A stretch of DNA of 53,920 nt. It comes from Magnetococcales bacterium. Lineage in GTDB: Bacteria > Pseudomonadota > Magnetococcia > Magnetococcales > UBA8363. Each line of letters begins with the position of its first letter. Position 1 is the first letter of the stretch. Under the pieces are notes generated by a model. It was not told the DNA's origin. It searched no databases and saw nothing but the letters and a program-made list of their open reading frames with translations. Of the stretch, positions 6,809 through 30,509 are shown in pieces. Location of the stretch: positions 1 to 53,920 of the forward strand of contig JACSDG010000004.1 of NCBI GenBank assembly GCA_015660855.1, given 5' to 3'. The position numbers were made by a program, and so were the translations under genes.

Positions 6809-8242
6809 CTACACCTCCGACATGGACGACACGTTGGGCAGGTCGCGGATGCCCCAGGTGTTGTGGGCGTAGTTGTAGGTAAGGGCCAGGGAGCACCAGG
6901 AGGCTGAGCGTTCCGGGAAACAAAACCAAACTTCCCGTTCGGTGCGGTTGACGCTGACAAAGGCGCGTTGACCGTTATCGGGGTCGATCTGTTGTTCCAA
7001 CCAGGCGCGATTGCGTCCTGTCAGGAGGCTGTTGGCGTTGTGACCGTCGAACATGTACAGGTCATCGCGGCTCATGCAGTAATGTTGTCCTTCCACCATG
7101 GCCACGCAGTTGGTGGCCAGCAAACCCACCGACTTGATCACCGGGGCCACTTTCCACACATACGGCGGTCCCACGTAGGTCAACGACCAGATTTGGTCAT
7201 CTTTGTAGACGATGAACTGATCCCTGAGCGGCATTCCTTCGACCAGTGCCGAACCGGTTTCGTCAATGACGGTTTCGCCCGCCAGCTTGGAGGCGTCCCC
7301 AACGTCCCAGGTTTCCGGAACTTGGCTGGGTTCGGCAGGGTGGCTCCATTTGACCACCTGGGGGAAGGCGATCCCCCCCTTGGTAGGGAAAATACCGATG
7401 AGAAACGCCTTGAAAAACCGCAGGCTGCGAATGGTTGTTCCCGCAGGCCAATGGGACAGATTGGCCAGCCTCGTGGTTTGGGACAGGGGATTCCACATTT
7501 GTGGGGCATCGACGCCATTGTTGAGATAACCGACTCCCCCCAGGGCATCCCCGTTCCACCCCAGGTTGGCGGTGCCGTTGTAGGCACTTTGGGTTTGTGC
7601 GCAACTGATGGCGGTGACATCGCCGACAAAATCGGCGTTAGCCTCCAAAGCCAGCAGGGTGTTGGTGATCGATGTGGCGGTGATGGTTTCGTTGAAGGTA
7701 CCGTTGGCACTGCGCACCGTACCCGCGATGCCACCGACCTTGGGGGTGAGGGTGCCGGCGGAATATCCCGAAATGGTAAACGAAACCGCGTAGGATCGTC
7801 CTTCCTTGATGTTCACATTCTGGGACAGACTGCTGGCGGTGGTTTGGGAACCGTTGCACTGGGCCTTGTCGGTGCCGGTATTGATGGACCAACCCGTCCC
7901 CAAAGTCCACCATGGTTTGGTGTTGTCGTAATCGGTCATTCCCCCATCATAAACCATGTCCGCACCGCTCGTGGTACGCGTAATGGTGTAATGGGTACCG
8001 TCCTTGACGGTATGGACCGCATCGGTTCCGCAATAACAAAGCTGGTCGTACATGTAGCGCAAAAAATTGGGGGCGGTGCTCAACGTGCCCAACACCGCCT
8101 TGAACCCCTGTACCTTGCGGGCCGCTCCACCGGTAAACTTGACGTTGGCACCCGAGGAAAAGGCATTGGGGGGGAGTGTGTGCGCCGGCTTGTCGCTGAT
8201 GATGCCGTATTGATCCAGTTGCGATACAGTAAAAAGCGGCAT
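6809..8242 (-). CDS. tail nozzle-like protein (T7 gp12-type) with inserted CBM-like domain
   Basis: 477 aa from ATG 8242. The N-terminus after this start (MPLFTVSQLDQYGIISD, LPPNAFSSGANVKF) matches the opening of short-tailed-phage tail-tube/stabilisation proteins, in which a Pro-Pro-Asn-Ala motif and a variable-site/position phrase follow. An alternative upstream ATG at 8296 lacks a ribosome-binding site. Residues about 100-220 form an inserted module (GTGWSIN..., AGTLTPKVGG, GTVRSANGTF, ANADFVGDV) that closely matches one in the adaptor gene at 10209-11237 and resembles beta-sandwich carbohydrate-binding domains. The C-terminal half (YMFDGHN, FCFPE, YNYAHNTWGIRDLP) is typical of nozzle proteins. 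It forms the channel end below the adaptor ring. Role by family resemblance. Confidence 0.75.
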   Translation of the reverse strand: MPLFTVSQLDQYGIISDKPAHTLPPNAFSSGANVKFTGGAARKVQGFKAVLGTLSTAPNFLRYMYDQLCYCGTDAVHTVKDGTHYTITRTTSGADMVYDGGMTDYDNTKPWWTLGTGWSINTGTDKAQCNGSQTTASSLSQNVNIKEGRSYAVSFTISGYSAGTLTPKVGGIAGTVRSANGTFNETITATSITNTLLALEANADFVGDVTAISCAQTQSAYNGTANLGWNGDALGGVGYLNNGVDAPQMWNPLSQTTRLANLSHWPAGTTIRSLRFFKAFLIGIFPTKGGIAFPQVVKWSHPAEPSQVPETWDVGDASKLAGETVIDETGSALVEGMPLRDQFIVYKDDQIWSLTYVGPPYVWKVAPVIKSVGLLATNCVAMVEGQHYCMSRDDLYMFDGHNANSLLTGRNRAWLEQQIDPDNGQRAFVSVNRTEREVWFCFPERSASWCSLALTYNYAHNTWGIRDLPNVSSMSEV

Positions 8243-8316
8243 GGCTGTCGGTGTCCCTCGATAAAAATAAGGATTAAAACAGGAATCTGGGGTCATGGGC
8301 AGAAATTATTTTTTAT

Positions 8317-11387: not shown

Positions 11388-12005
11388 TTACTTTACGCCA
11401 TGGGCGGCGCGGATGGATTGGACCAGTCTGTAGACGTGAGTACCGGTGCCGATTGGCCAACGGCTTGCGGGTGATGGATCGGTTCTTTCAGCGATTTCGA
11501 TGGCGTCATCAACCCTGTCTTTGAAAGCGTCAAGATCAAGGTTTGCACTGTTATAGGATCCCCCTAGGGAATTCTTCAGTATTCCTTTTATTTCAGTACA
11601 ATTTAAACTATCTTTTGGTGGGGATTGTCTGTGGCACAACAGCCAAATTTCAAAGCATGGATTGCTGACGGCCAGTTTGTATTTTTTGGTCCGGGCCTCT
11701 TGTGCAACTTCCGACAGGGTTTGGTCTAGCCATCGGTCCACATCAATCATGAGCCACAGCCCATCATTCTTTTCAAAGGAGTGATCTTTATTGTAATTAT
11801 TCAGGCGTTCAATTACATGCTGGGGAGCTGAAGCGTTATCCTCCCCGGTAGGAAGTATGAGAATCTGGACTCTTCGGGAGTGAAAAATATTAAAATATTG
11901 TTTTTCTGTTTCTCGACCTTCCGTGGCGATGACGATGAGGCGGGTATCTCGCAAAGGATGCTCGATACGATTGATGGGCCTCTTTTTTCGTGAGACTTTA
12001 GTCAT
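11388..12005 (-). CDS. RloB-family protein, effector partner of an AbiL-like defence pair
   Basis: 205 aa. The N-terminal motif VIATEGRETEKQYFN, the central LMIDVDRWL and the SNPCFEIWLLCH motif are characteristic of the RloB family, a TOPRIM-like fold. Conserved Glu and the D-x-D pair fit metal-dependent nuclease chemistry. It overlaps the upstream AAA ATPase gene by 8 bp, so the two are co-translated. The pairing of an AAA ATPase with RloB is the layout of AbiL-type abortive-infection systems. Its location within a prophage virion operon suggests defence against competing phages. The family call is strong; the biological role is inferred. Confidence 0.8.
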   Translation of the reverse strand: MTKVSRKKRPINRIEHPLRDTRLIVIATEGRETEKQYFNIFHSRRVQILILPTGEDNASAPQHVIERLNNYNKDHSFEKNDGLWLMIDVDRWLDQTLSEVAQEARTKKYKLAVSNPCFEIWLLCHRQSPPKDSLNCTEIKGILKNSLGGSYNSANLDLDAFKDRVDDAIEIAERTDPSPASRWPIGTGTHVYRLVQSIRAAHGVK

Positions 12006-13356
12006 TGACGGGAATATCTCCCCGCTGTTTCAAGCCAAGAGCGGACGTGTTGCCAATGAAAGGGATGGCACCAAACCGACCTTGTAAATAACCACGTTCT
12101 ACGTTCATGCCACGACGAAATTTGTGTCTTGCAAGCGAATAGAGATGGGATTTACCGCCAGTGTCCTTTTCAACAAACCATATTTCATCCCGACGCAACA
12201 AATCAAGATCCAGAAGATTGCTTTCGTGGGTGGTGAAGATCAACTGGTTTTTGCTGTCTGCATTTGAATTCAGGAAAGTTTCGAGGAACAAACGCGACAG
12301 GCTGGGATGCAGGGTCCGATCCAGTTCGTCTATAACGTAAACATTTTCAGCATCGTCTTCACGATAATGCAATAGAGGCAAAAGCTGCAACAAACGTCGG
12401 GTGCCCGTGGATTCATCATCCATTTTGAAATCGACAATGTCGCCATCTGAGGTGTTGTGGCCTGCCATAAGTTCTATTTGGGCTGGATGTTCCCTTCCTG
12501 AGAAAATTAAAATTCTTTCACTATTGTTGCTTTCAGCAAACATTACCGTATCGTCACCTTTTTTCTCAATTTCTTCTAGCATTTTCTCTAAAAGTTTTTG
12601 TGGGAAAGCATCCACATTTTTTCTTACAGATTTGAAGTTGCAGATGCCCGTGTCGGCAGTTTTCATGAAGGTTTCGATAAATTCGCGGAAATCATTGTTG
12701 ACGTGTGCAAGGAAAGGCGCAGGTAGATGAGAACCACTGGGAAGTAAACAGACCAACCGATGATTGAACCAATTGAATACCGGCTTCAATTCTCCAAGAT
12801 TATGGTCATCGGAATGAGTGAGAAATGATTGATTTTCCCGGACACTTTCTGTCAGAAAGTCAAGAAATTTTCGTCCTTTCGTGTGACTCCGGGCCAACGT
12901 TCTGCTGACGTTGAACTCGCTGGCTCCCGCAGCATCAACGACCCGCTCGAACAGCATGATTTCCCGCTGTTTTGGACGGAAATAGAGCCATTCTTCATGA
13001 AATCTTTTATTGTCACAAACAAAGCCGTAAGTGTATTCAATTCCCTGGGCAGTGAAGGTGAATTCAAAGCGGGAGGGTTGATCAAGAAAACGTTTATCCA
13101 ACAGAAACGGTTTCACGGGGATGGATTGTCCCGATTTGACCCCCTGGGTGATGATCGTTTTGGCCAGTTGCATGGCCTGGACGAGCCTGGATTTGCCATG
13201 GGCGTTGGCACCGTATAGGGCGGCAACGCGCAGGGCATTGACTTTGTTGGCTTGGTACAAATGGCTGGGGTGTGCGGGATCCTTTGTGGCGATCATGGAG
13301 AGCACGGCTTCTTCGGCGAAGCAGTAAAGATTTTCGACACAAAAGCGTAGCAGCAT
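11998..13356 (-). CDS. AAA (OLD/RloA-like) ATPase of an AbiL-like defence pair
   Basis: 452 aa from ATG 13356, which has GGAG 6 nt upstream; a longer frame to 13455 reads into a dispersed repeat. Walker A GANAHGKS at residues 49-56, an ABC/SMC-like signature STGTRRLLQLLPLL at about 316-329, Walker B VYVIDELD at about 339-346 and the switch histidine THES at about 376 are all present. This fits the AAA_15/AAA_21 ATPases used in Abi and PARIS-type defence. The N-terminus (LLRFCVENLYCF) is the usual start of these proteins. The ATPase would sense infection and control the downstream RloB effector. The gene is AT-richer than the virion genes. Confidence 0.8.
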   Translation of the reverse strand: MLLRFCVENLYCFAEEAVLSMIATKDPAHPSHLYQANKVNALRVAALYGANAHGKSRLVQAMQLAKTIITQGVKSGQSIPVKPFLLDKRFLDQPSRFEFTFTAQGIEYTYGFVCDNKRFHEEWLYFRPKQREIMLFERVVDAAGASEFNVSRTLARSHTKGRKFLDFLTESVRENQSFLTHSDDHNLGELKPVFNWFNHRLVCLLPSGSHLPAPFLAHVNNDFREFIETFMKTADTGICNFKSVRKNVDAFPQKLLEKMLEEIEKKGDDTVMFAESNNSERILIFSGREHPAQIELMAGHNTSDGDIVDFKMDDESTGTRRLLQLLPLLHYREDDAENVYVIDELDRTLHPSLSRLFLETFLNSNADSKNQLIFTTHESNLLDLDLLRRDEIWFVEKDTGGKSHLYSLARHKFRRGMNVERGYLQGRFGAIPFIGNTSALGLKQRGDIPVND

Positions 13357-13377
13357 TTTGGCTCCTGGACATGATGC

Positions 13378-13493
13378 CCTTCGGGCAAAAAACAAAACTT
13401 TAGGGTGCTGCCCCAAACCTAGGCCGGGGGGGATGATCCCCTCCCTAACCCCCACAATAATTTATTGCCAAACTTTGTTTTTCCGATACGTAG
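13378..13493 (+). repeat. dispersed hairpin repeat, copy A
   Basis: Contains the TGCCCTTCGGGCA hairpin, a C/G-rich palindrome (GGGGGGATGATCCCC) and the tail CAATAATTTATTGCCAAAC. The same blocks occur inverted at 37293-37480 and in part at 46852-46893. No protein is encoded. It looks like a genome-wide intergenic repeat. Together with the 50-bp repeat at 13537 it fills most of the 13357-13774 gap. Confidence 0.75.
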
Positions 13494-13536
13494 ACAACCA
13501 CGATTCGCACTTATACCTCCTTCCCAGGACTGGGAC

Positions 13537-13586
13537 ACGCATCGCATCATACGATGAAAGTTGCCTCCTTGGAAGTGTGTCGGTAT
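13537..13586 (+). repeat. 50-bp direct repeat, left copy
   Basis: Matches 17077-17126 at about 47 of 50 positions. It contains the small palindrome CATCG-CATCATA-CGATG and ends in GGAAGTGTGTCGGTAT. Each copy lies upstream of an Rpn-family gene, and together they bracket 3.5 kb carrying one Rpn gene, the HRDC gene and the caspase-FGE gene. Confidence 0.85.
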
Positions 13587-13774
13587 TGGCCTGATCATTT
13601 CCTCTTGACGCATCGGGTATGTGTTTCGATTGTTGTGAAGCACATTTTGCGGATCCCTGTGGACTGGAAGGGTAAAATCCTGGACAATTGGGGATCGGAT
13701 CGGTGTGGCCTCGGGTTTTTTGTAGTGTTGAAGCCTTTTCTCCAAACCAAAAACTTCAGATCAAAAGGAAAGGG

Positions 13775-14794
13775 ATGACCACCCAGGAAAGCAACGAAAA
13801 ACGTCCCAACGATGAATTTGACGTTCCATGGAAGGATATTCTGGAGGCTTATTTCCCAGAGTTTTTGGCGTTTTTTCTTCCAGTTGCCCATGACGGTATT
13901 GACTGGGAGCGAGGATTTGAGTTCCTTGACAAAGAGTTATCCCGCATCACCCGTGAATCCCGGATCGGTGATCGGCGCATGGACAAGCTTGTAAAAGTGT
14001 GGCGGCGGGATGGTGTTGAACTTTGGGTTCTGATTCACATTGAAATCCAGGGAGATCGTAAGGCAAACTTTGCCGAAGGAATGTATGTTTATCAATATCG
14101 TGCGTATGATTTGTATCAAGTACCGGTCGTTGGTTTGGCCATTCTGGCGGACGAAGAGATGGATTGGCGACCGACTGAGTTTGGTTATAATCTTTGGGGA
14201 ACGAAGCAGAGTTATCAATTTACGGCAATAAAATTGTTGGATTATCCGAAGGCGGAACTGGAAAAATCCAATAATCCGTTCGCGATTGTTACGTTGGCGC
14301 ATTTGTATGCCAAAAGAACAAAACATCTGATAGAGGATCGCTACCAGTCCAAGAGGCATTTGATCCGTAGTTTGTATCATGGTGGCTTTAGTCGCCAGCA
14401 AATTATTGATCTATTTATTTTTATTGACTGGGTGCTTCATTTGCCAGATGCGTCTGACAAAAGGTTGTGGAAGGAAATTATCGCTTTTGAGGAGAGCCAA
14501 AAAATGCCTTATATTTCGAGTGTAGAACGTTTTGGTATGCAGAAAGGCATGCAGGAAGGCATGCAGAAAGAGGGTGCGTCGATGTTAACGCGCCAGATGC
14601 AACATCGTTTTGGTTCCATACCTGATTGGGCTTGTGAAGAAATTTCCAAAGCGGATCTGTCTTCTCTGGAGGAATGGAGTCTTCGTATATTGGATGCCGC
14701 AACGCTGGATGCGGTATTTTCAGGCAAGGGATCCTCCGATGTGAACACCACTTATAGAGAAGAATCCAGGGATCTCATACCAAAATCTGTATAA
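13775..14794 (+). CDS. Rpn-family PD-(D/E)XK nuclease/putative transposase
   Basis: 339 aa from ATG 13775, which is preceded by AAAGGAAAGGG; an upstream in-frame ATG at 13688 has no ribosome-binding site. The N-terminal region (FDVPWKDILEAYFPEFLAFF) and the core strand LWVLIHIEIQGDR are typical of the Rpn/transposase_31-like PD-(D/E)XK family with a DUF4351-type C-terminus (GMQKGMQEGMQKEGASML, RFGSIPDWACEEISKADLSSLEEW). These proteins are recombination-promoting nucleases that multiply in genomes; most are not true transposases. It is on the opposite strand to the virion genes and is cargo of the island. Its upstream region carries the 50-bp repeat. Confidence 0.8.
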   Translation: MTTQESNEKRPNDEFDVPWKDILEAYFPEFLAFFLPVAHDGIDWERGFEFLDKELSRITRESRIGDRRMDKLVKVWRRDGVELWVLIHIEIQGDRKANFAEGMYVYQYRAYDLYQVPVVGLAILADEEMDWRPTEFGYNLWGTKQSYQFTAIKLLDYPKAELEKSNNPFAIVTLAHLYAKRTKHLIEDRYQSKRHLIRSLYHGGFSRQQIIDLFIFIDWVLHLPDASDKRLWKEIIAFEESQKMPYISSVERFGMQKGMQEGMQKEGASMLTRQMQHRFGSIPDWACEEISKADLSSLEEWSLRILDAATLDAVFSGKGSSDVNTTYREESRDLIPKSV

Positions 14795-14815: not shown

Positions 14816-15367
14816 TCAATTTACAACCATAAGGGAAACAGGTATGTTGTCCCCGGATTTCAAACCAACAATTTTGCCAAGTACCGCCAGAATTTCCTGG
14901 CTGTATTTTTTCAGCCGTCCTGCGCCAAACCCATCCACCTTGGCCAAAGCGGTCACATTTTCCGGTTGTAGGCGGACGACATCAGCCAACTGTTTGTTGG
15001 TACACACAAAATAAGGTGGAACGCCCTCTTCCCTGGCCCTCTTGGCACGCCATTCTCGCAGAGTGTTAAACATTGGCATGGCTGCGTCCTTCAGGGTCTT
15101 GCGCCAACCTTCATCCCGATTGTTGGCATGGTTTTTCCCTGTTGGCACGTAACTTTCGCCTCCACTTGCCATGTGGTATATCACCACCAGCACCAAATGT
15201 GGCGTACCATGGTGAACAAAGGCATGATCCCTGATTGAATGTACATCTTTGTCGGCAACGAATGCGCGAACCTCTGTGTCATCCAAGCATCCGGTCAACG
15301 TATTGATTTTTGAGGTGAAAATTTTTACATTTACAAACAAGGCTGTCAAAAAAAATGTCGCGGCCAA
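14816..15367 (-). CDS. HRDC-domain protein (DGR-accessory-like), start uncertain
   Basis: The C-terminal half (LREWRAKRAREEGVPPYFV, TNKQLADVV, LAKVDGFGAGRLKKYSQEIL) is a clear HRDC helix bundle, as in RecQ/RNase D. The N-terminal half (FVNVKIFTSKINTL, VRAFVADKDVHSIRDHAFV, LVLVVIYH) resembles the small N-terminal domain seen in HRDC proteins that accompany diversity-generating retroelements. No ATG precedes this domain; possible starts are TTG at 15367, 15349 or 15340, one inside a hairpin, so the 5' end may be damaged. It lies downstream of the caspase-FGE gene on the same strand. A nucleic-acid-binding role is implied by HRDC; the DGR link is inferred. Confidence 0.65.
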   Translation of the reverse strand: MAATFFLTALFVNVKIFTSKINTLTGCLDDTEVRAFVADKDVHSIRDHAFVHHGTPHLVLVVIYHMASGGESYVPTGKNHANNRDEGWRKTLKDAAMPMFNTLREWRAKRAREEGVPPYFVCTNKQLADVVRLQPENVTALAKVDGFGAGRLKKYSQEILAVLGKIVGLKSGDNIPVSLMVVN

Positions 15368-15406
15368 GGGCTTCGCCCTTGGATCCCACCAGGGGTTCCA
15401 CCCCTG
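15364..15406 (-). terminator. tandem hairpins with T8 after the caspase-FGE gene
   Basis: Two perfect stems lie side by side: CCAAGGGC/GCCCTTGG (15364-15382) and CCAGGGGT/ACCCCTGG (15388-15406). On minus they are followed, after CCGCGACA, by eight T. A further imperfect stem (CGGCGC/GTGCCG) lies at 15502-15516, closer to the putative variable region. DGR targets often carry a hairpin just after the variable region, so part of this array may serve homing rather than termination. Confidence 0.55.
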
Positions 15407-15538
15407 GACCCCGTCCCTCCGCCCTTACGGTCGTCGCGCGGGCTGAGAACCGCCCGCTCGCCGCCCTCCAGGGCTGCGGGAAAAAGCAACACCAAAAGGC
15501 ACGGCACTTCGCGCCGCAAGGGTAAAAGCGTAAAAGGA

Positions 15539-17047
15539 CTAAGGGCAAGTCCTCGACAGGCGAAAACCCAAGTCGTCATAGCGATAGCCCGGGTCGTCGA
15601 TGTTGCGAAAAGCGGAGCGAACGTCGGCCGGGTAGCTGCCCCAGCCGCCGCCCCGATCAACCCGGTCGGAGCCTGATGATGGACCTTGCGGGTTATCCCT
15701 GGGTGAGTTGGCATAGAACTTGCCGTCGTCCCTATCCGATACCCACTCCCAAACATTTCCGCCCATGTCATGCAAGCCAAGGCCATTCGCCGACTTCTGG
15801 CCTACGGGGTGGGTTTTTCCTCCACTATTCTCACTGTACCATGCCACCTGATCCACATTTCCACCGCCACAATATTTCTCTTCCCTGCCCCCACTCCGAC
15901 ACGCATATTCCCATTCCGCTTCCGTTGGTAAACGATAAGTGCAGCCATCCCGACGCCCATTCAGCCTGCTTATAAAACCCTGCACATCATCCCACGAAAC
16001 CTTTTCTACGGGACATTGATCCCCGCATGAAGTAAACCCGGAAGGGTTCGCCCCCATCACTGCTTGCCACTGCCCCTGCGTCACCTCATATTTACCCATT
16101 TCAAACTCGCCAACCCTGACCTCATGTACTGGCTTTTCATCAGAGCTACAATCCGACTGCCACGAACCACATCCCATCTGAAACGTCCCTCCGGGGACTC
16201 TGACAAACTCAATACCCGTTGACGTTAGTATTACCACTTCCTCTTTTTTAATTCTAAAATTAAATTTATTCTTGACAGTTTCCGGTCCGTTTACATACGG
16301 TGTTTGCCTCCCTTCGCTTTTTTCTTCAACATAGGTGCTGGCCGTCAGCAACACATTGCCCAGGCTCAAGTCTTTGGCCTTGAAGCCGGTCAACAGTCCA
16401 GCGGTAAACAATCCGTTTCGTCCTTCTCCATCGGCGGCCACATTGCCGGGATTCGTGGCGTACACGATCACCGTTCCCTTGGGAAATCCCGAAGGCGGTG
16501 CCAGACCACGGGTGCTTCCTTCTCTGAATTTTCCTGAAAAAACGTTGTTCCGGCAGGCATCCAATATCACCATATTGATGGCACTTTTGGCGTTTTCCAC
16601 TTCTTCCAATACCAGGTTGACATTCACCCCCTCGTCCGCAACCAAGGCTTCACTTTCCGCAGAGGCATCAATGGGCATCAGGTAGTTCTGGCTTTTAATC
16701 TGGAGTCCGTGCCCGGCAAAATAAAACAGGGTCGCATCCGCTTCTACAGCCTTCCTGCCAAACTCGGCAATGGCTTTTTTCATGTCTCGCTTGTTCAAGT
16801 TTTTGTGGACCATTACTTCAAAGTTGAATCCTTTCAAGGCCTTTGCAATATCATCCGCGTCATTAACCGGGTTCCTGAGCGGGCCCAAATATTCGCCAAC
16901 ATAGGCACCGTTGCCTATAACCAGGGCTACACGCTTCCCGGCGTCCTGGTCGCGACTTCTCCCTCGGTCATCCGTTGCCAGAACGGACATCAAGGGGATC
17001 AGCAGCCCGGCAATCAGCAGAAGCCAATGTATTTTGGAAACTTTCAT
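15539..17047 (-). CDS. secreted caspase-like peptidase fused to FGE/C-type-lectin domain with DGR-type variable C-terminus
   Basis: 502 aa from ATG 17047; a GTG at 17080 would only add residues before the signal peptide. Residues 1-24 are a signal peptide (WLLLIAGLLIPLMSVLA). Residues about 38-255 are a caspase-family (C14, orthocaspase-like) domain with catalytic His113 (YFAGHGLQ) and Cys165 (ILDACRNN). Residues about 280-502 are an FGE-sulfatase/SUMF1 domain (PGGTFQMG, KYEVTQGQWQAVMG, LPTEAEWEYACR, GGNVWEWV, LGFRLSR). The final 40 residues have the RGG-W ... VRSA-x-RN ... LGFRL frame of DGR variable regions, with mixed residues where a template would encode Asn. The product is probably periplasmic or surface-exposed and binds a varying ligand. 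Confidence 0.85.
   Translation of the reverse strand: MKVSKIHWLLLIAGLLIPLMSVLATDDRGRSRDQDAGKRVALVIGNGAYVGEYLGPLRNPVNDADDIAKALKGFNFEVMVHKNLNKRDMKKAIAEFGRKAVEADATLFYFAGHGLQIKSQNYLMPIDASAESEALVADEGVNVNLVLEEVENAKSAINMVILDACRNNVFSGKFREGSTRGLAPPSGFPKGTVIVYATNPGNVAADGEGRNGLFTAGLLTGFKAKDLSLGNVLLTASTYVEEKSEGRQTPYVNGPETVKNKFNFRIKKEEVVILTSTGIEFVRVPGGTFQMGCGSWQSDCSSDEKPVHEVRVGEFEMGKYEVTQGQWQAVMGANPSGFTSCGDQCPVEKVSWDDVQGFISRLNGRRDGCTYRLPTEAEWEYACRSGGREEKYCGGGNVDQVAWYSENSGGKTHPVGQKSANGLGLHDMGGNVWEWVSDRDDGKFYANSPRDNPQGPSSGSDRVDRGGGWGSYPADVRSAFRNIDDPGYRYDDLGFRLSRTCP
15557..15667 (-). other. putative DGR variable region (VR)
   Basis: Within the last codons of the caspase-FGE gene. At the positions where FGE-type template repeats usually encode Asn, the codons are GAT, GGC, AGC, TAC, GAC, TTT, AAC, ATC, GAC, GAC, GGC, TAT, TAT, GAC and GAC. 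All end in C or T, as expected if AAC/AAT codons were mutagenised at adenines. Invariant frame residues (RGG, W, VRSA, RN, LGFRL) are kept. No matching template repeat or reverse transcriptase lies in this window. Confidence 0.55.
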
Positions 17048-17076
17048 CGCATTTTCATCCACACCAAGGTTGGGAG

Positions 17077-17126
17077 ACACATCGCATCATACGATGAATG
17101 TTGCCTCCCTGGAAGTGTGTCGGTAT
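17077..17126 (+). repeat. 50-bp direct repeat, right copy
   Basis: Second copy of the repeat at 13537-13586, in the same orientation. It lies between the start of the caspase-FGE gene (minus) and the second Rpn gene (plus), so it also occupies their divergent promoter region. Confidence 0.85.
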
Positions 17127-17146
17127 CATGGCCTCCGGGAGTTGAT

Positions 17147-18256
17147 ATGGTGCGGCAATCTGGTATGCTCTTGCCGATGAGCGAGATCAGTCAGCCCCAC
17201 GACCGGTTGTTCAAGGCACTGCTGTCTACCCCGGAGACTGCGGGTGCCTTGCTGCGGGAATATCTGCCGCATGAAGTGGTACGGTTGCTGGCACCTGAAC
17301 CGCCGCAATTGGTTGAGGGCAGCTTTGTCGAAGAAAATTTGCGCCCCTACTATTCGGATCGTCTGTTCGAGGTCAAGACGATTAGCGGCAGATCGATTTG
17401 CTTCTATGTCTTGATCGAACACAAGAGCTTCGAGGACGGAAAGGCCGGTTGGCAGATTTTTCGGGGCATTTCGGCGTTCCTGGAGCAAAAGGCACGGGAA
17501 AACGAGAAATGGCGGCAGCTTCCAGCGGTCCTGGCCTTGCTGGTTTACAACGGTGCACAGGAGTGGCGTATTCCCAATGAGTTCCTGGCCCTGGTCGATG
17601 CTGACGAGGTTTTGCACCCCTGGCTGCTCAATTTCCGTTTTCCGGTAGTCGATCTGGGCCCGATCCCGGATCGGAAACTTTCCGGGCATGCGCGGCTGCG
17701 CGTCGGTTTGATGGCGCTCAAATACGGAACCCGTGATCTCAAGGCCCAAATGGCGGCCCTGGACCGGATTGTGGATGCCCTGATCGAAGCCCCGGAACTC
17801 CTGCTGCCAGTGTTGCTCTATCTGTTGACGACATTCCACCATATGAACGAAGAGCAGGTGCGGCAAGTGGTTCGCCGCGTCAAACCAGAGGAGGAATCTG
17901 CCATGATGTCCGAATTTGCCAGGAAAATTTTGTCCAAGGACAGACCAGAATGGGTGGTGGCAGTTGCCAGGGAAATGTTGTCCAAGGACAGACCAGAATG
18001 GGTGGTGGCAGTTGCCAGGGAAATGTTATCCGAGGACAGACCAGAATGGATGGTGGCAATGATGCGCCAGGAAGGCCGCCAGGAAGGCCGCCAGGAAGAA
18101 GCCGCTTCCATGCTGCTCAAACTGATGCGTCGCAAATTCGGCCAGACGCCGGACTGGGCGATCGAGAAGGTCAGCTCGGCGGGTCTGGAATTGATCGAAA
18201 CGTGGGGCGAAAATGTTTTGTTCGCCAATTCCGTGGACGAGGTGTTTGCGTTGTGA
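17147..18256 (+). CDS. Rpn-family recombination-promoting nuclease/putative transposase
   Basis: 369 aa from ATG 17147 (GGGAG 5 nt upstream); an internal ATG at 17177 (MSEISQPHDRLFKALL) gives the more usual family start but lacks a Shine-Dalgarno. QPHDRLFKALL, ALLREYLPHEVVRLL, DRLFEVKT and FYVLIEHKS are hallmarks of the Rpn PD-(D/E)XK family; the EVK and EHKS strands carry the catalytic acids. Near the C-terminus a 16-residue unit (LSKDRPEWVVAVAREM) is repeated three times, followed by EGRQEGRQE and a DUF4351-like end (RRKFGQTPDWAIEKVSSA). It closes the cargo island, tail-to-tail with the phage adaptor gene 38 bp away. Confidence 0.85.
   Translation: MVRQSGMLLPMSEISQPHDRLFKALLSTPETAGALLREYLPHEVVRLLAPEPPQLVEGSFVEENLRPYYSDRLFEVKTISGRSICFYVLIEHKSFEDGKAGWQIFRGISAFLEQKARENEKWRQLPAVLALLVYNGAQEWRIPNEFLALVDADEVLHPWLLNFRFPVVDLGPIPDRKLSGHARLRVGLMALKYGTRDLKAQMAALDRIVDALIEAPELLLPVLLYLLTTFHHMNEEQVRQVVRRVKPEEESAMMSEFARKILSKDRPEWVVAVAREMLSKDRPEWVVAVAREMLSEDRPEWMVAMMRQEGRQEGRQEEAASMLLKLMRRKFGQTPDWAIEKVSSAGLELIETWGENVLFANSVDEVFAL
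17931..18056 (+). repeat. 48-bp tandem repeat inside the Rpn gene
   Basis: Three in-frame 48-bp units starting at 17931, 17979 and 18027 (the last shortened) encode LSKDRPEWVVAVAREM. The first two are nearly identical at the DNA level, so copy number may vary. Confidence 0.85.
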
Positions 18257-18294: not shown

Positions 18295-18915
18295 TCATTC
18301 CGGTATCACGCGGGGGATCTGGCCGTCGAAATCGCGTTGATCTTCGTTCATGCGGATGCGGTTTTTTTCCTTTTCCGCCAGTTCCATCCACAATCCCGCC
18401 CGTTCCGGATCCACGCGAGCGGAGGCTTCGTGAATCAGGACTTCCGGTGCGTAGACCAGCCAGGGATTGGTGGCGGTGTTGGTGGCAAGCGATCCCCCGG
18501 TTTTAAAATGGATCAGGCGAAACGTGGTGGTGACGGCGGGGGTGGGAAACAGGTAGATTTTACTTCCCAAAATGGCAAACCATTCCACTGTCCCTTCCCC
18601 CAGGTTGCGGGCGGTGAGGGCTTCATAAGAATCCCGTTGCAGCATTACCCAGGGGTTGGTCCGGGTGCTGTCGTAACGGTAAAGCCCCCCCCGGGTTCCC
18701 AAACGCAGAAAACCGGCGGGGAGGGTTATGGTTGCGGTCCTGGCGGTGGCGGTCAGAGTGTCGTCCACATTCATGAGAAACCACGGCAACACCGCATCCC
18801 ACTCCAAAGACGCTTGCGCCATCTCCAGTTCCAGACGAATCCGTTCGTCCCAACCCGCCACATGATCCTGGCCGGTGCGCAGTCGAATCAATTCAATGGC
18901 CTCGTCTCTTTTCAT
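18295..18915 (-). CDS. head-to-tail adaptor-like protein (T7 gp11-type), short form
   Basis: 206 aa, MKRDEAIELIRLRTGQ start. The family pattern is an N-terminal helix pair with acidic residues (WDERIRLELEMAQASLE), LPWFL, a beta core (TITLPAGFLRLG) and a final helical part (EVLIHEASARV). It is a paralogue of the 342-aa protein at 10209-11237 but lacks the CBM-like insert. It overlaps the 3' end of the methyltransferase-GT9 gene by 23 bp. It would sit below the portal ring. The duplication of adaptor genes on both sides of the cargo island is notable. Confidence 0.7.
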   Translation of the reverse strand: MKRDEAIELIRLRTGQDHVAGWDERIRLELEMAQASLEWDAVLPWFLMNVDDTLTATARTATITLPAGFLRLGTRGGLYRYDSTRTNPWVMLQRDSYEALTARNLGEGTVEWFAILGSKIYLFPTPAVTTTFRLIHFKTGGSLATNTATNPWLVYAPEVLIHEASARVDPERAGLWMELAEKEKNRIRMNEDQRDFDGQIPRVIPE

Positions 18916-21763: not shown

Positions 21764-22714
21764 TTAGTTGGCGGAATCCCACATCAAAATGCGAGCCTGG
21801 GCCGCCTGGGTGTGGCAGATGCCAAAGCCCCCCAGATAGTACCAGGCGATGCCGCGATCCCGACCAAAATCGCCAGGGATCTTGCCGCGAATCTCCTCGG
21901 GAACACCCACCGCTTCGGCGACGGTGTCACGACCGAAAAAATAGACGGCGTCGTTGCCGTTGGCCCACGCACTGCCTTTGGTGGTTCCAACCCCTTTGGC
22001 GATGCCGTTCTGCTCGACAAAACGGATCCCTTCATAGCGACCGATTTCGCCATTCATGATCATTTTGAACCCGGATTCGATGTACTGATGCAACGATTCC
22101 AGATCTTTTTTCAGTTGGCGAAAGGTGGCGGGACGCCCAAGGGCATAATAATCGCCATTGTCATAGGCGGGAATCGAACGTTCTTTCATCAGGTCCACGA
22201 CCACTTGCACATGGCCCTTGCCCAGGGCGACGTTGTTGGTCTCGGTGGCGGTTCCGTTGGTGGTCAGGGTCACCGTGGAGGTGGACGTGCCCGCCGTCAA
22301 ACGCAACGGCGTTGCGGCAAACTGTGCTTGGGCCGCAGCGTCCAGGGTGCGGTTGGAATCATGCTTGAGCACCTGATGAATCACCTCCGTCACCGGATGT
22401 TCCGAAAGATTGTCCAACTTTTCGGTAAAGGGGACGCTGTTGCCGTACTCCTGGACCGTGAGGGTCCCTTGGGCGATGGTAAACTTGGTCTCCGGCATGG
22501 TGGACGTTTCCACCAGGGTTGTCCCCTGGGCGGCCACGTCGCCATAGACGTTCCAGTGAAAGGTATCGCCACGGTTTTTGCCAAAAGCTTCCTTGATGTC
22601 GCAAAACTGCCGAAACTTGCTCAGTGGCTGTACCGCAAAACGCAATTTTTCCGACAGATTGTCGGCATACATGTAACCGCCGTCAGCGGATACACTCCAG
22701 ATTTGTCCGGCCAT
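21764..22714 (-). CDS. major capsid protein (N4-gp56-like, HK97 fold)
   Basis: 316 aa. The N-terminus (YADNLSEKLRFAVQPLSKFRQFCDIKEAFGKNRGDTFHW), TTLVETSTMPETKF, GNSVPFTEKLDNLSEHPV and the C-terminal GICHTQAARIL-like end fit the N4-gp56 family of HK97-fold capsid proteins. Length is in the usual range (300-400). AGGAG lies 8-10 nt before the ATG. It follows the scaffold gene after 16 bp and is followed by its own terminator. There is no protease domain next to it. It forms the icosahedral shell. Confidence 0.85.
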   Translation of the reverse strand: MAGQIWSVSADGGYMYADNLSEKLRFAVQPLSKFRQFCDIKEAFGKNRGDTFHWNVYGDVAAQGTTLVETSTMPETKFTIAQGTLTVQEYGNSVPFTEKLDNLSEHPVTEVIHQVLKHDSNRTLDAAAQAQFAATPLRLTAGTSTSTVTLTTNGTATETNNVALGKGHVQVVVDLMKERSIPAYDNGDYYALGRPATFRQLKKDLESLHQYIESGFKMIMNGEIGRYEGIRFVEQNGIAKGVGTTKGSAWANGNDAVYFFGRDTVAEAVGVPEEIRGKIPGDFGRDRGIAWYYLGGFGICHTQAAQARILMWDSAN

Positions 22715-26389: not shown

Positions 26390-28438
26390 TTACCGCCGCA
26401 AATTTTGCCGGAGTTTGGCGGTGGATGCGGTGGCCAGGGCGGCATGGATGCGCAGGCGTTCCAGTTCTGCTTTGGTGGCCAGTTCGGTTTTTTTCATGGC
26501 TTCGGTGCGCATTCTTTCTTCGCGCCGGGTTTGCAGTCGTGCCGTCTCGATTTGGCGTTGCAGGCGCAAGGCTTCCCGTTGAACATTCACCTTGTCCTGT
26601 TCCACTTCGACCAGGGGGTTTTGTTCCGGGGGTGCCGGAGGGGCGTTGAGTTGGGGGTAGAAGCGGATACCATCTTTGTAACCCAACAGACCAAAGACCT
26701 CCGAAACCAATTGTTTGGCATCGGGTGCCATTCCCAGCAAATCGGAAACGGTGCGCGCCCCCATCAAAAACCGTTCCAACCGGTTTTGCACATTGGTGGC
26801 TCCCACCCCCACATTGATGCGCACCGTCAATTCCTGTTCCAGCAACCGGTCAACGATGGGATTGAAACCAAAACGTTGTACCAATGGTGAACGCCGTCCC
26901 GCCATGGTGAGGATGAATTCGTCGGTCTCAAAACGTTGTTCCAGCTTGACCAGTTGCCGCAACACCGGCTCGGCCCAGGTTTCCACGAACACCCGCAGCA
27001 GATATTCGGTGGTCAGGTTGGCGTCGGCCGACAGTATGTTCATACCGCCGACGGTTTCGTTGAGTTGCCGATTGATGTTGACACTTCCCTGGTCAAACGT
27101 GCCGATGGCCGAATCAAAGTCGGCATTGAGCAGGTTTTGTTCCTCGTAGGCACTGGAAGTGATATCGGGGGTTTGATGGACGATCACATCCGTTTCGGGA
27201 TTGGTCATCATGGTGACCGATCCGGGGATGTTTTTGGTCAGGCTTTTAAGGTCCACCCCGCTGCCGCGCCGGGCGAAATAGCGTTTGTTTAAAACCAGTT
27301 GAACATTGTCAAAACGTTGATTTTGGACTTCGTTGATGGCCGATTGCAAATCCTGGGACAGCTCTACAAGCCCTGTCGGATAAAGACGATGGGCCTCGAT
27401 GATGCAGGTTCCCATGGCAAAAGGGCGGCCATGGGGATAAACCTCTGTGACCACGACCGGGTCACTTAACATGGCTTTGGATCCCAGGGTGAAGAACACC
27501 CAATCCTGACCATCGCGCCGGATAAAGTTTTCGTGAACGTTGAGGATGGAAAAATCGCGTATTCCCCGGCGGTTTTCTGTTGGAATGCGATCCTGACGTT
27601 GATTTTGGATGCTGTCGTTGAAGGCTTCGGCCTCGGATGCGGCGGCAAGGATGGTCTCTTCATCCAGGGATCGCCATGGACCTTGCATTTGTTTTTTAAT
27701 TTCGTCCATCCGCATGGGTATGATGTGGATGACGAAGGGGGAGGAACGAATGGGATCGCGCCAGTCGGCCCCGGCGTCAAGTCGTATGTTTTCCGGTTCC
27801 AGGAGTTCGATTCGGGGCCGATCCACCACCCGCACCATTTCCATGTGTCGATGGATGACGGGTTGGCCCTGGGGGTCATGAATGACCAAACCGGTTACGG
27901 GATCGGTGAGGGCTGTTTCTACCTCCTGCATTTCTTCGGAATATTCCCAGGTTTGCTTGGAAACGCAGATTCCATGCACCATGGCATCCTGAAAGGCACC
28001 GATCACCGTTTGAAACCAGGGGATGTCCTTGTCCAAACGATGATGGATAATTTCTTTGAACACTTCGGCACTGGCCAATTGCCTGGGATCGCCATCGTCG
28101 CGGGGTTCCAGGCTGACCATCTCGGAATTTTGAAAAAATGCGGCTGCGGCATGGGCTTCGTTGCGACGGATGGCGTTGCGGGTTTTGGGCCGAAACAGGG
28201 AGGAACGGCGTTTATACAGTTCGGAGTGATATTTGGATCCTTCGGGATGTTTGGAGCGAAAATTGGCCAGGTTGCGACGCCATTGCCGCCGCAAATTTTT
28301 TTCCATCCAATCCCGACTCCCCTCGTAGGCTTCCTGGGACATCTTGAGCCAGGTTTCATCCTGGGCATTGGTGTCATCCTGCCCATTATTGTGGTCGTCG
28401 GTGTCGGTGTTTTGGGGTGCTGTGAATGCCGGATTCAT
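26390..28438 (-). CDS. phage portal protein
   Basis: 682 aa from ATG 28438, which overlaps the upstream stop (ATGA); the frame is open further but runs into that gene. WLKMSQEAYEGSRDWME, KPKTRNAIRRNEA-type sequence, a long beta/alpha middle with IIEAHRLYPTGLVELSQDLQSAINEVQNQRFDNV, and a helical C-terminus with a long R/E/Q-rich coiled coil (VQREALRLQRQIETARLQ) match large podovirus portal proteins. It forms the dodecameric DNA gate and binds terminase and adaptor. It lies between TerL and scaffold as expected. Confidence 0.85.
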   Translation of the reverse strand: MNPAFTAPQNTDTDDHNNGQDDTNAQDETWLKMSQEAYEGSRDWMEKNLRRQWRRNLANFRSKHPEGSKYHSELYKRRSSLFRPKTRNAIRRNEAHAAAAFFQNSEMVSLEPRDDGDPRQLASAEVFKEIIHHRLDKDIPWFQTVIGAFQDAMVHGICVSKQTWEYSEEMQEVETALTDPVTGLVIHDPQGQPVIHRHMEMVRVVDRPRIELLEPENIRLDAGADWRDPIRSSPFVIHIIPMRMDEIKKQMQGPWRSLDEETILAAASEAEAFNDSIQNQRQDRIPTENRRGIRDFSILNVHENFIRRDGQDWVFFTLGSKAMLSDPVVVTEVYPHGRPFAMGTCIIEAHRLYPTGLVELSQDLQSAINEVQNQRFDNVQLVLNKRYFARRGSGVDLKSLTKNIPGSVTMMTNPETDVIVHQTPDITSSAYEEQNLLNADFDSAIGTFDQGSVNINRQLNETVGGMNILSADANLTTEYLLRVFVETWAEPVLRQLVKLEQRFETDEFILTMAGRRSPLVQRFGFNPIVDRLLEQELTVRINVGVGATNVQNRLERFLMGARTVSDLLGMAPDAKQLVSEVFGLLGYKDGIRFYPQLNAPPAPPEQNPLVEVEQDKVNVQREALRLQRQIETARLQTRREERMRTEAMKKTELATKAELERLRIHAALATASTAKLRQNLRR

Positions 28439-28755
28439 GCGTTTACATCTCCCTTGGCCTCGCCGGTGATGCACCGGGGCAATTCGTTGAGAAGGTCGGC
28501 ATTGGCCCCCCGACGTGCCAACCGGTAGCGTTCCAGAATTTCGCCGCCTGCCATGACGACCTTTTTGAGGAGAGGGTCGTTTTTCAGTGTTTCCAGGGGA
28601 ATATCGAAGCCCCATTGGCCCGAAAGGTCCAGATTGCGGATGCGGACCAGACCGCCGGTGATAGCCACTGCCCAGCGGTAACCGGGATAGGTGTGCCACA
28701 GGGCCTCGCCCACCTGGGCTGCTTGGTATTGTTCATGGGTTGGGGTTTGGTTCAT
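28435..28755 (-). CDS. phage protein between terminase and portal, unknown
   Basis: 106 aa, MNQTPTHEQYQAAQVGEALW start. It has a compact central part (GYRWAVAITGGLVRIRNLDL, WGFDIPLETLKNDPLLKK) and a helical end. Its stop overlaps the portal start. The conserved position suggests a packaging accessory protein; the family is not recognised. Confidence 0.7.
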   Translation of the reverse strand: MNQTPTHEQYQAAQVGEALWHTYPGYRWAVAITGGLVRIRNLDLSGQWGFDIPLETLKNDPLLKKVVMAGGEILERYRLARRGANADLLNELPRCITGEAKGDVNA

Positions 28756-28831: not shown

Positions 28832-29061
28832 GGGCGTTGGGGCTGGTTGGGGTGTTGGGTGGGACATGGGTAGGGATCCTGTGTCAAGGTTTCTGCGTTT
28901 GGCCCATCCGCTTCCGGGGGATCCTGGAGCGGCTGGCGAACGCGGGTAAATTTTCGTCCATTGGAAAATTCATAGGTGGTGGCGGGGGGGTGTTGACCAT
29001 CATTGGCCAGGGCGACCATGTCACCCCAATCAAAAATACGCGTGGATATATGGGCGTTCAT
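28828..29061 (-). CDS. 77-aa phage protein, unknown
   Basis: MNAHISTRIFDWGDMVALAN start, overlapping the TerL stop by 4 bp. Contains YEFSNGRKFTRVRQ and then a Pro/Gln/Asp-rich disordered tail. Probably a small packaging-region accessory protein. No family recognised. Confidence 0.65.
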   Translation of the reverse strand: MNAHISTRIFDWGDMVALANDGQHPPATTYEFSNGRKFTRVRQPLQDPPEADGPNAETLTQDPYPCPTQHPNQPQRP

Positions 29062-30509
29062 AGAGTTCCCACGTCTTCCGGATAACAGGCGGTTTCATCC
29101 TCATGAAAAGGGGCGACGCTCCGGGAAAAGGTCAGGGCCAGGGCATCACCGCAGTCGGGTGAGGAGAGTCCCCGACGTTTCATCATCTCTTTTTTTTCCA
29201 GGCGGACTTGCTGGGTGGGGGAAAAGCCATATTCCACCGATGTCAATTCACCCAACAGTTCCGGGTCATCGGGGAGTTCCATGCCATGGATCAGGGCATC
29301 ACGCATGCGGCCCCACATTTCGGCACGCAGGTTGAAATATTTTTGCGGCTCCATGGCACTGTGGCCGGCATTGATTTCGATGATGTCAAATCCCAGCTGC
29401 CGCAGTTGGTCTACCACCGAGCCGCCGATGCCCACACCATCGACGAATACTGCGTGGGGTCGCCATTGACGAATGATTTTGGCGGCGCGGGCACTGGTTT
29501 GCGTGGTGTCCAGGCCGCGCATTTTGATCAAAGGGTGCAGTTTGCGTCCTTGACGCAGGGCAAATACCGTCTGGTCTTCACCAAAGCGGGCGACATCGAT
29601 TCCCAGGATGCGGGGTTGACTTTCATACCCTTGTGCCTTGCAATGCCGACACCGTTCCACGGCGGTCCCTGGGATAAACTGGTTGGAACCGGAACGGGGA
29701 AAAAGGCCACGCACCCGCACCCGGGCAAAATCGGAATCTTCGCCGTAATCATCGATCCATTGCTGTATTTGTCCCTTGTTGGTCAAACGACAGGTACGTG
29801 AATCGATCTGCCGGGTGATCCATCGATGCTTGAAACGGCCAAAACAGGAATGGAATCGACCGGATGCCAAGGTGGGGTTGCCAAAACAGCACCATAAAAT
29901 TTCGGTGTTGGCGTCGGTCATGGCCCCTTCGGCCACTTCCCAGACCGAGTCGGGAATGGCGGAGGCTTCATCGAAGAACAGGGCTACGCGTTTGCCTTCG
30001 TTGTGAAGTCCGGCGAAGGCTTCGGTATTGCGTTCACTCCAGGGTACCATATCGATGCGCCATGTTTTTTCAAACTTGGGGTCGGCGGCAAACAGGGCGG
30101 TGGCGGTCATGCGAAACAATTCTCCTCCCAGGCAACGCCGTCGCCATTTGGCCAGTTCGGCCCAGGTTTTGGTTTTAAGCTGGTTTTCGGTATTGGCGGT
30201 CACCACCCCTTTGGTTTCCTCGAAGGTCATGATGGACCAGAGCATCAGCCAGGCCACCAGTGCCGATTTGCCGATGCCGTGGCCGCTGGCGACGGCGACG
30301 CGTACCGGTGCTCCATGGCCTCCACGCAGGGAGGTGGTGATGGCCTGGAGAACGTCCGTCTGCCATGGGTCGGGACCGGTGTGATCGGTCAAGTCTCCCG
30401 TTCCCCATGGAAAACAGAGCTGGACAAATTTGAGGGGATCTTTGGAACAGTCTGCCAGCAGTTCCGCCAATTGTTGTTGCAGTTCTTCAGGTGTCGCTGG
30501 GTTCTTCAT
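29058..30509 (-). CDS. terL: terminase large subunit
   Basis: 483 aa. ATPase: Walker A GHGIGKS at residues 76-82 and Walker B VALFFDEAS at 175-183. Nuclease: GIDVARFGED at about 303-312, VFVDGVGIGGS and the final SPDCGDALAL, giving the acidic triad. It cuts concatemeric DNA and powers packaging through the portal. The small subunit gene overlaps it by 23 bp. The length is normal for the family and no key residue is missing. Confidence 0.92.
   Translation of the reverse strand: MKNPATPEELQQQLAELLADCSKDPLKFVQLCFPWGTGDLTDHTGPDPWQTDVLQAITTSLRGGHGAPVRVAVASGHGIGKSALVAWLMLWSIMTFEETKGVVTANTENQLKTKTWAELAKWRRRCLGGELFRMTATALFAADPKFEKTWRIDMVPWSERNTEAFAGLHNEGKRVALFFDEASAIPDSVWEVAEGAMTDANTEILWCCFGNPTLASGRFHSCFGRFKHRWITRQIDSRTCRLTNKGQIQQWIDDYGEDSDFARVRVRGLFPRSGSNQFIPGTAVERCRHCKAQGYESQPRILGIDVARFGEDQTVFALRQGRKLHPLIKMRGLDTTQTSARAAKIIRQWRPHAVFVDGVGIGGSVVDQLRQLGFDIIEINAGHSAMEPQKYFNLRAEMWGRMRDALIHGMELPDDPELLGELTSVEYGFSPTQQVRLEKKEMMKRRGLSSPDCGDALALTFSRSVAPFHEDETACYPEDVGTL

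Follow-up and report, generated by a model that had tools for sequence, protein, structure and literature searches.

A caspase-FGE gene in a Magnetococcales prophage is probably an orphaned, frozen DGR target

A caspase-FGE gene and an HRDC gene inside a prophage

We analyzed a stretch of 53,920 nucleotides from contig JACSDG010000004.1 of a Magnetococcales bacterium (GCA_015660855.1), referred to here as the window, in which a gene joining a caspase domain to an FGE domain lies beside an HRDC gene (Table 1). The pair is bracketed by two plus-strand YhgA-like/DUF4351 genes, and phage structural genes lie around it. These terminase, portal, head, adaptor and virion genes show that caspase-FGE and HRDC form a cargo island of a prophage, in line with the original prediction made from the sequence of this locus.

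Table 1. Features of the window, by position.
Feature	Position	Strand	Details
Virion structural protein	6809-8296	-	
DUF4351 (YhgA/Rpn-like) gene	13688..14794	+	PF14261; sits where relatives have Avd-RT-TR; no Avd/RT homology
HRDC accessory gene, DGR type	14816..15334 (start approximate)	-	PF00570 E=2e-19
Hairpin after the variable region	15501..15517	-	GCGGCGC-GAA-GTGCCGT, one G.T inside the stem
Caspase-FGE open reading frame	15539..17080	-	513 aa counted from GTG 17080
FGE / C-type-lectin-fold domain	15557..16210	-	PF03781 (FGE-sulfatase) E=3e-48, residues 291-508
Variable region (VR)	15558..15655	-	RGGGWGSYPADVRSAFRNIDDPGYRYDDLGFRL; final ~98 nt of FGE
Caspase domain (Peptidase_C14)	16286..16936	-	PF00656 E=4e-35, residues 49-265
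YhgA-like Transposase_31 + DUF4351 gene	17126..18256	+	PF04754 E=4e-44, PF14261
SU10-type adaptor	18295-18915	-	
Major head protein	21764-22714	-	
Portal	26390-28699	-	
Terminase	29058-30509	-	

The gene, both of its domains and the C-terminal frame are present as first described. Translation of caspase-FGE likely starts at ATG 17047 and not at position 17080, and the protein then begins with the signal peptide MKVSKIHWLLLIAGLLIPLMSVLA. Read in sequence, this signal-peptide-like N-terminus suggests that the protein is exported, so that the secreted protein of the original prediction can be upheld as one that looks secreted; caspase-FGE proteins with an apparent signal peptide are also found in relatives (L113, L116 and L192). 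The translation contains YFAGHG and LDACRNN, which supply the His and the Cys of the catalytic dyad of Peptidase_C14, and the protein is accordingly a predicted caspase. By sequence, through the PF03781 match and the match to 2y3c, the C-terminal domain has a C-type lectin fold with the variable region at its end; 2y3c, the Treponema denticola variable protein 1 and a known DGR target, is the best solved relative of the domain (E=8e-32). An AlphaFold model of the protein has a helix at residues 16-38 and a pLDDT of 34 in the variable region, too weak to place the variable residues. The scrambled lectin surface may bind some ligand, with the caspase domain as the output.

Two further features of the surroundings were recorded. 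Direct repeats of 63 nt (13524-13586 and 17064-17126, 89% identical) stand one before each YhgA-like gene and bracket HRDC and caspase-FGE, and an RloB-like gene and an AAA ATPase (AbiL-like, PADLOC) lie beside the pair at 11388-13455, inside the prophage.

Adenine-specific differences from the templates of relatives

DGRs diversify lectin-fold targets by writing into them copies of a template with mutagenized adenines. Templates of the matching family in other Magnetococcales genera read RGGSWNNNPANVRSANRNNNDPGNRNNNLGFRLA, with small variations. Relative to their consensus, the variable region of the window is changed at 14 of 26 template adenines and at 0 of 40 non-adenines in codon positions 1 and 2, so that every difference at these replacement positions falls on an adenine, and at 5 of 32 third positions. 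When an individual template, that of G020, was used instead, the counts at codon positions 1 and 2 were 15/28 for adenines and 1/42 for non-adenines (Fisher p=6e-7). Family cassettes show the same pattern between their own variable regions and templates, with 16/17 (G008) and 19/19 (G035) mismatches at A. The original prediction had read the variable positions as lying on NNC/NNT codons, as adenine mutagenesis of AAC/AAT would leave them, and all 12 variable codons do end in C or T. On these comparisons the variable region is very probably of DGR origin, as had been proposed for this C-terminus.

Adenine bias alone is no proof of a DGR, since FGE paralogs for which no template is known likewise vary mainly at the same loop positions (C29, p=5e-4; C148, p=0.01). 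Such paralogs are what would be seen if the loops of caspase-FGE had varied by normal evolution of a ligand-binding surface and a DGR had never been involved, an explanation that we consider very improbable. The paralogs C29, L052, L053, L066 and L071 carry 4-6/40 non-adenine replacements and 14-22/32 third-position changes relative to the templates, and the lack of any non-adenine replacement, the uniform C/T codon endings and the low third-position divergence set the window's variable region apart from most FGE paralogs. The non-adenine and third-position comparison largely refutes descent as an ordinary paralog. The same explanation also has to contend with the VR-type 3' end and hairpin described below, with the DGR-type HRDC gene that adjoins caspase-FGE, and with Avd and RT fragments elsewhere in the genome.

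Synonymous sites point the same way in one close comparison. Upstream of the variable region, the FGE gene of the window and that of G003, a species in the window's genus, are no more than 48% alike. Synonymous sites differ at 3/20 positions within the variable region and at 46/79 upstream of it (p=5e-4), a pattern that a single genus template writing both variable regions would produce. Homogenization was tested on codons for identical residues, where it was significant only against G003 and G040; raw third-position counts had suggested homogenization against all relatives, which we discarded because the stricter test left only these two.

At its 3' end the variable region is of the GAGGACT type found in relatives' variable regions, at a place where relatives' templates have AGTAC. 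The hairpin that follows matches the GGCGC-GNA-GCGCC hairpins found after most variable regions of the family and lost in G003 and G007. It lies about 40 nt from the variable region, farther than the 4-34 bp reported for phage DGRs. In the Bordetella phage DGR, the hairpin is needed for target recognition and homing (PMC3240598).

HRDC and complete cassettes in relatives

HRDC proteins accompany some DGRs (PMC4891356), and the neighbor of caspase-FGE had been taken for an accessory gene of this kind. The HRDC gene of the window is 60-77% identical to HRDC genes in complete or truncated DGR cassettes of Magnetococcales. Its relatives in the same order adjoin FGE genes, and three genomes hold them in operons of the form FGE(VR)-HRDC-Avd-RT-TR; complete cassettes with such relatives are L108, L110, L111, L190, L191 and L193, of which L190, L191 and L193 have TR/VR pairs without any non-adenine mismatch. 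Operons of the type FGE-HRDC-Avd-RT-TR occur in both Magnetococcales and Planctomycetota. A planctomycetotal locus, L192, is a caspase-FGE-HRDC-Avd-RT operon on a contig that stops inside the RT or directly behind it; given this operon and the recurrence of caspase-FGE proteins with a signal peptide, the pair in the window looks like the front half of a cassette. The collection scan for HRDC was run on a five-member alignment, the seven-member set being too diverse. No member of the HRDC family was found among viral contigs, and FGE relatives in phage records were only partial, at <60% identity.

Between the window and G003, dN/dS of HRDC is 0.30, indicating purifying selection. With this value and an intact frame, HRDC may still have a use; alternatively, the selection may reflect the time before the cassette was lost.

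Some cassettes have features of their own. Toxin-antitoxin-like pairs (DUF2281/PemK, HicAB-like) lie between Avd and RT inside the DGR cassettes of L108 (4647-5184), L111 (1450-1912) and L202 (8386-9001). In L107 (1-2869; G003:C79) an FGE gene lies in a tandem 1128-nt repeat with an identical variable region and partial HRDC, followed by a full HRDC at the end, an arrangement that is either real or an assembly effect.

Search for a template and a reverse transcriptase

The original prediction reported no template repeat or RT in the window. We likewise found neither, nor an Avd gene; no RT stands beside the target, and directly downstream of HRDC no RT or Avd remnant was detected at a meaningful E. 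Homology between the window and G003 covers the end of the variable region, the spacer and HRDC, and extends no further than the HRDC core.

The source genome is a draft of 238 contigs, 97.8% complete, so a template could lie in repeats or gaps. A whole-genome search with an adenine-permissive IUPAC pattern, allowing <=3 mismatches, matched only the variable region itself, and BLAST of the family templates against the genome gave significant E only for the variable region and a scrap on contig C5, with no fitting template. The assembly therefore yielded no template that differs from the variable region only at adenines. RT searches of the genome recovered one group II intron RT and three DGRs, on contigs C39, C180 and C170, so that of the two things the original prediction proposed to look for across the genome, DGR reverse transcriptases were found and a matching template was not.

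All three resident DGRs have templates and targets. The C39 DGR (L032) has an FGE template with its own targets, and the template also fits two remote FGE targets on C137 (L036); the C180 DGR (L030) has an FGE template and targets; and the C170 DGR (L031) has the template of a lectin of the Lcl_C/DUF1566 type, not FGE. Most mismatches between resident targets and their templates are at adenines of the template; in C180, 13/14 and 16/18 are.

Because resident DGRs exist and the C39 template has remote targets, caspase-FGE might be a target in trans of one of them. We regard this as extremely improbable and as refuted at the level of sequence: over 96 nt the C180 template has 36 mismatches, only 10 of them at template A, the C39 template has 41, only 11 of them at template A, and the C170 template encodes a different lectin family.

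The rest of the genus was searched in the same light. None of the eight genus genomes has an intact gene of the cassette RT clade; four of the eight (G000, G003, G004 and G007, three of them besides the window's own genome) have variable regions of the family. In the other genus genomes that hold orphan variable regions, including the 99% complete G007, no fitting template was found.

Cassette fragments and the fate of the target

Pieces of the matching cassette are scattered through the source genome. Contig C105 has an Avd tail, a DUF2281/PemK toxin-antitoxin pair and the head of an RT (first ~45 residues), with 74% nucleotide identity to the G020 cassette over 741 nt; this truncated N-terminal stub is the only RT of the matching family in the genome. 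Contig C93 has an Avd tail, and on C5 an Avd tail is in frame with an FGE tail that bears a variable region; the hairpin recurs on this contig, which also has a fragment of HRDC. After the RT head, the C105 sequence gives way to an array of short repeats (L202 9120-9450).

The original prediction had an RT encoded elsewhere diversifying caspase-FGE. A live remote target of this kind would receive its diversity in trans, either from a template and RT that lie in unassembled sequence or from a cassette that is intact in part of the population. In its favor, and against an orphaned target, the reading frames of caspase-FGE and HRDC are intact and the hairpin is nearly intact; HRDC is under purifying selection as well. 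Repeats adjoin the RT fragment, where short-read assemblies break, and template-less targets in Thiohalocapsa PB-PSB1 have been traced to loci with intact RT and TR in long-read structural variants (PMC10907252). Nevertheless, we consider a live target unlikely, because the template is in neither the assembly nor the other genus genomes with orphan variable regions, and only a truncated RT of the family turned up in the genome. The absence of any template-like repeat, which had been named as grounds for rejecting the original prediction, means that, as far as this assembly goes, the proposal of a live remote target fails; the DGR origin of the variable region stands.

We therefore favor caspase-FGE as an orphaned, frozen DGR target in this genome, which is probably the correct explanation. 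The comparisons above show a variable region of DGR origin, an assembly with no fitting template and fragments of the matching machinery. A cassette of the form FGE(VR)-HRDC-Avd-RT-TR would once have diversified the 3' end of caspase-FGE by writing there copies of an Asn-rich template with mutagenized adenines. The cassette family would later have been broken up in the source genome, leaving the target and HRDC between two YhgA-like transposase genes in the prophage; the truncated RT, Avd tail and toxin-antitoxin pair on C105, and the Avd, FGE and HRDC scraps on C5 and C93, would be its remnants. With the DGR machinery of the assembled genome in pieces, a single version of the receptor now looks to have been frozen, and its specificity would be fixed unless a template were supplied again.

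A different fate, which we think quite improbable, is that the target and HRDC are portable half-cassettes, carried by prophages and transposases without an RT of their own and diversified again on meeting a matching template and RT. If so, the phage would carry a secreted death-protease receptor that can be re-armed.

Relation to known DGR systems

DGR targets that join a caspase to a lectin, targets remote from the RT, and disrupted DGR loci have all been described before. The HRDC cassettes of the Treponema denticola type (PMC4891356; TvpA, PDB 2y3c) resemble the locus in their FGE-type C-type-lectin target and in an HRDC gene beside the DGR core, and the adenine-only TR/VR differences of that type are seen in the complete cassettes of the window's relatives. 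Unlike them, the window keeps only the target and HRDC, with RT and Avd as fragments elsewhere and no template found, and the cassettes of Magnetococcales relatives have Avd in addition to HRDC.

In cyanobacteria, DGRs act on orthocaspase-lectin proteins and on remote targets (PMC7517822), which share with caspase-FGE a caspase-like N-terminus, a DGR-diversified C-type-lectin C-terminus and a position away from the RT. The cyanobacterial proteins are described as mostly cytosolic, whereas the window's protein has an apparent signal peptide and its genome has no matching template. In Thiohalocapsa PB-PSB1, too, mobile elements break DGR loci, and some disrupted loci and targets have no perfectly matching template in the assembly (PMC10907252). 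Long reads there revealed intact structural variants; the genome of the window, in contrast, is known from its assembly alone, and what it has of the matching RT is a stub that lies on a different contig.

With the receptor and HRDC intact and the RT, Avd and template gone or fragmented in the same genome, the locus would be a clear example of the state that a DGR reaches once it has broken up. It would permit a direct test of what function a frozen hypervariable receptor retains, and of the role of HRDC without an RT.

A paralog of caspase-FGE on contig C71 (L119 1331-3187) has a caspase domain 81% identical to that of the window and ends in an Lcl_C lectin tail. The end of this tail resembles the C170 template, with 15/21 mismatches at adenines. 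Together with the FGE tail of the window, it suggests that caspase heads have been joined to two families of DGR-written lectin in this lineage. The presence of both FGE and Lcl_C on Magnetococcales caspases that are apparently secreted strengthens the case for DGR-diversified sensing ends on caspases beyond cyanobacteria.
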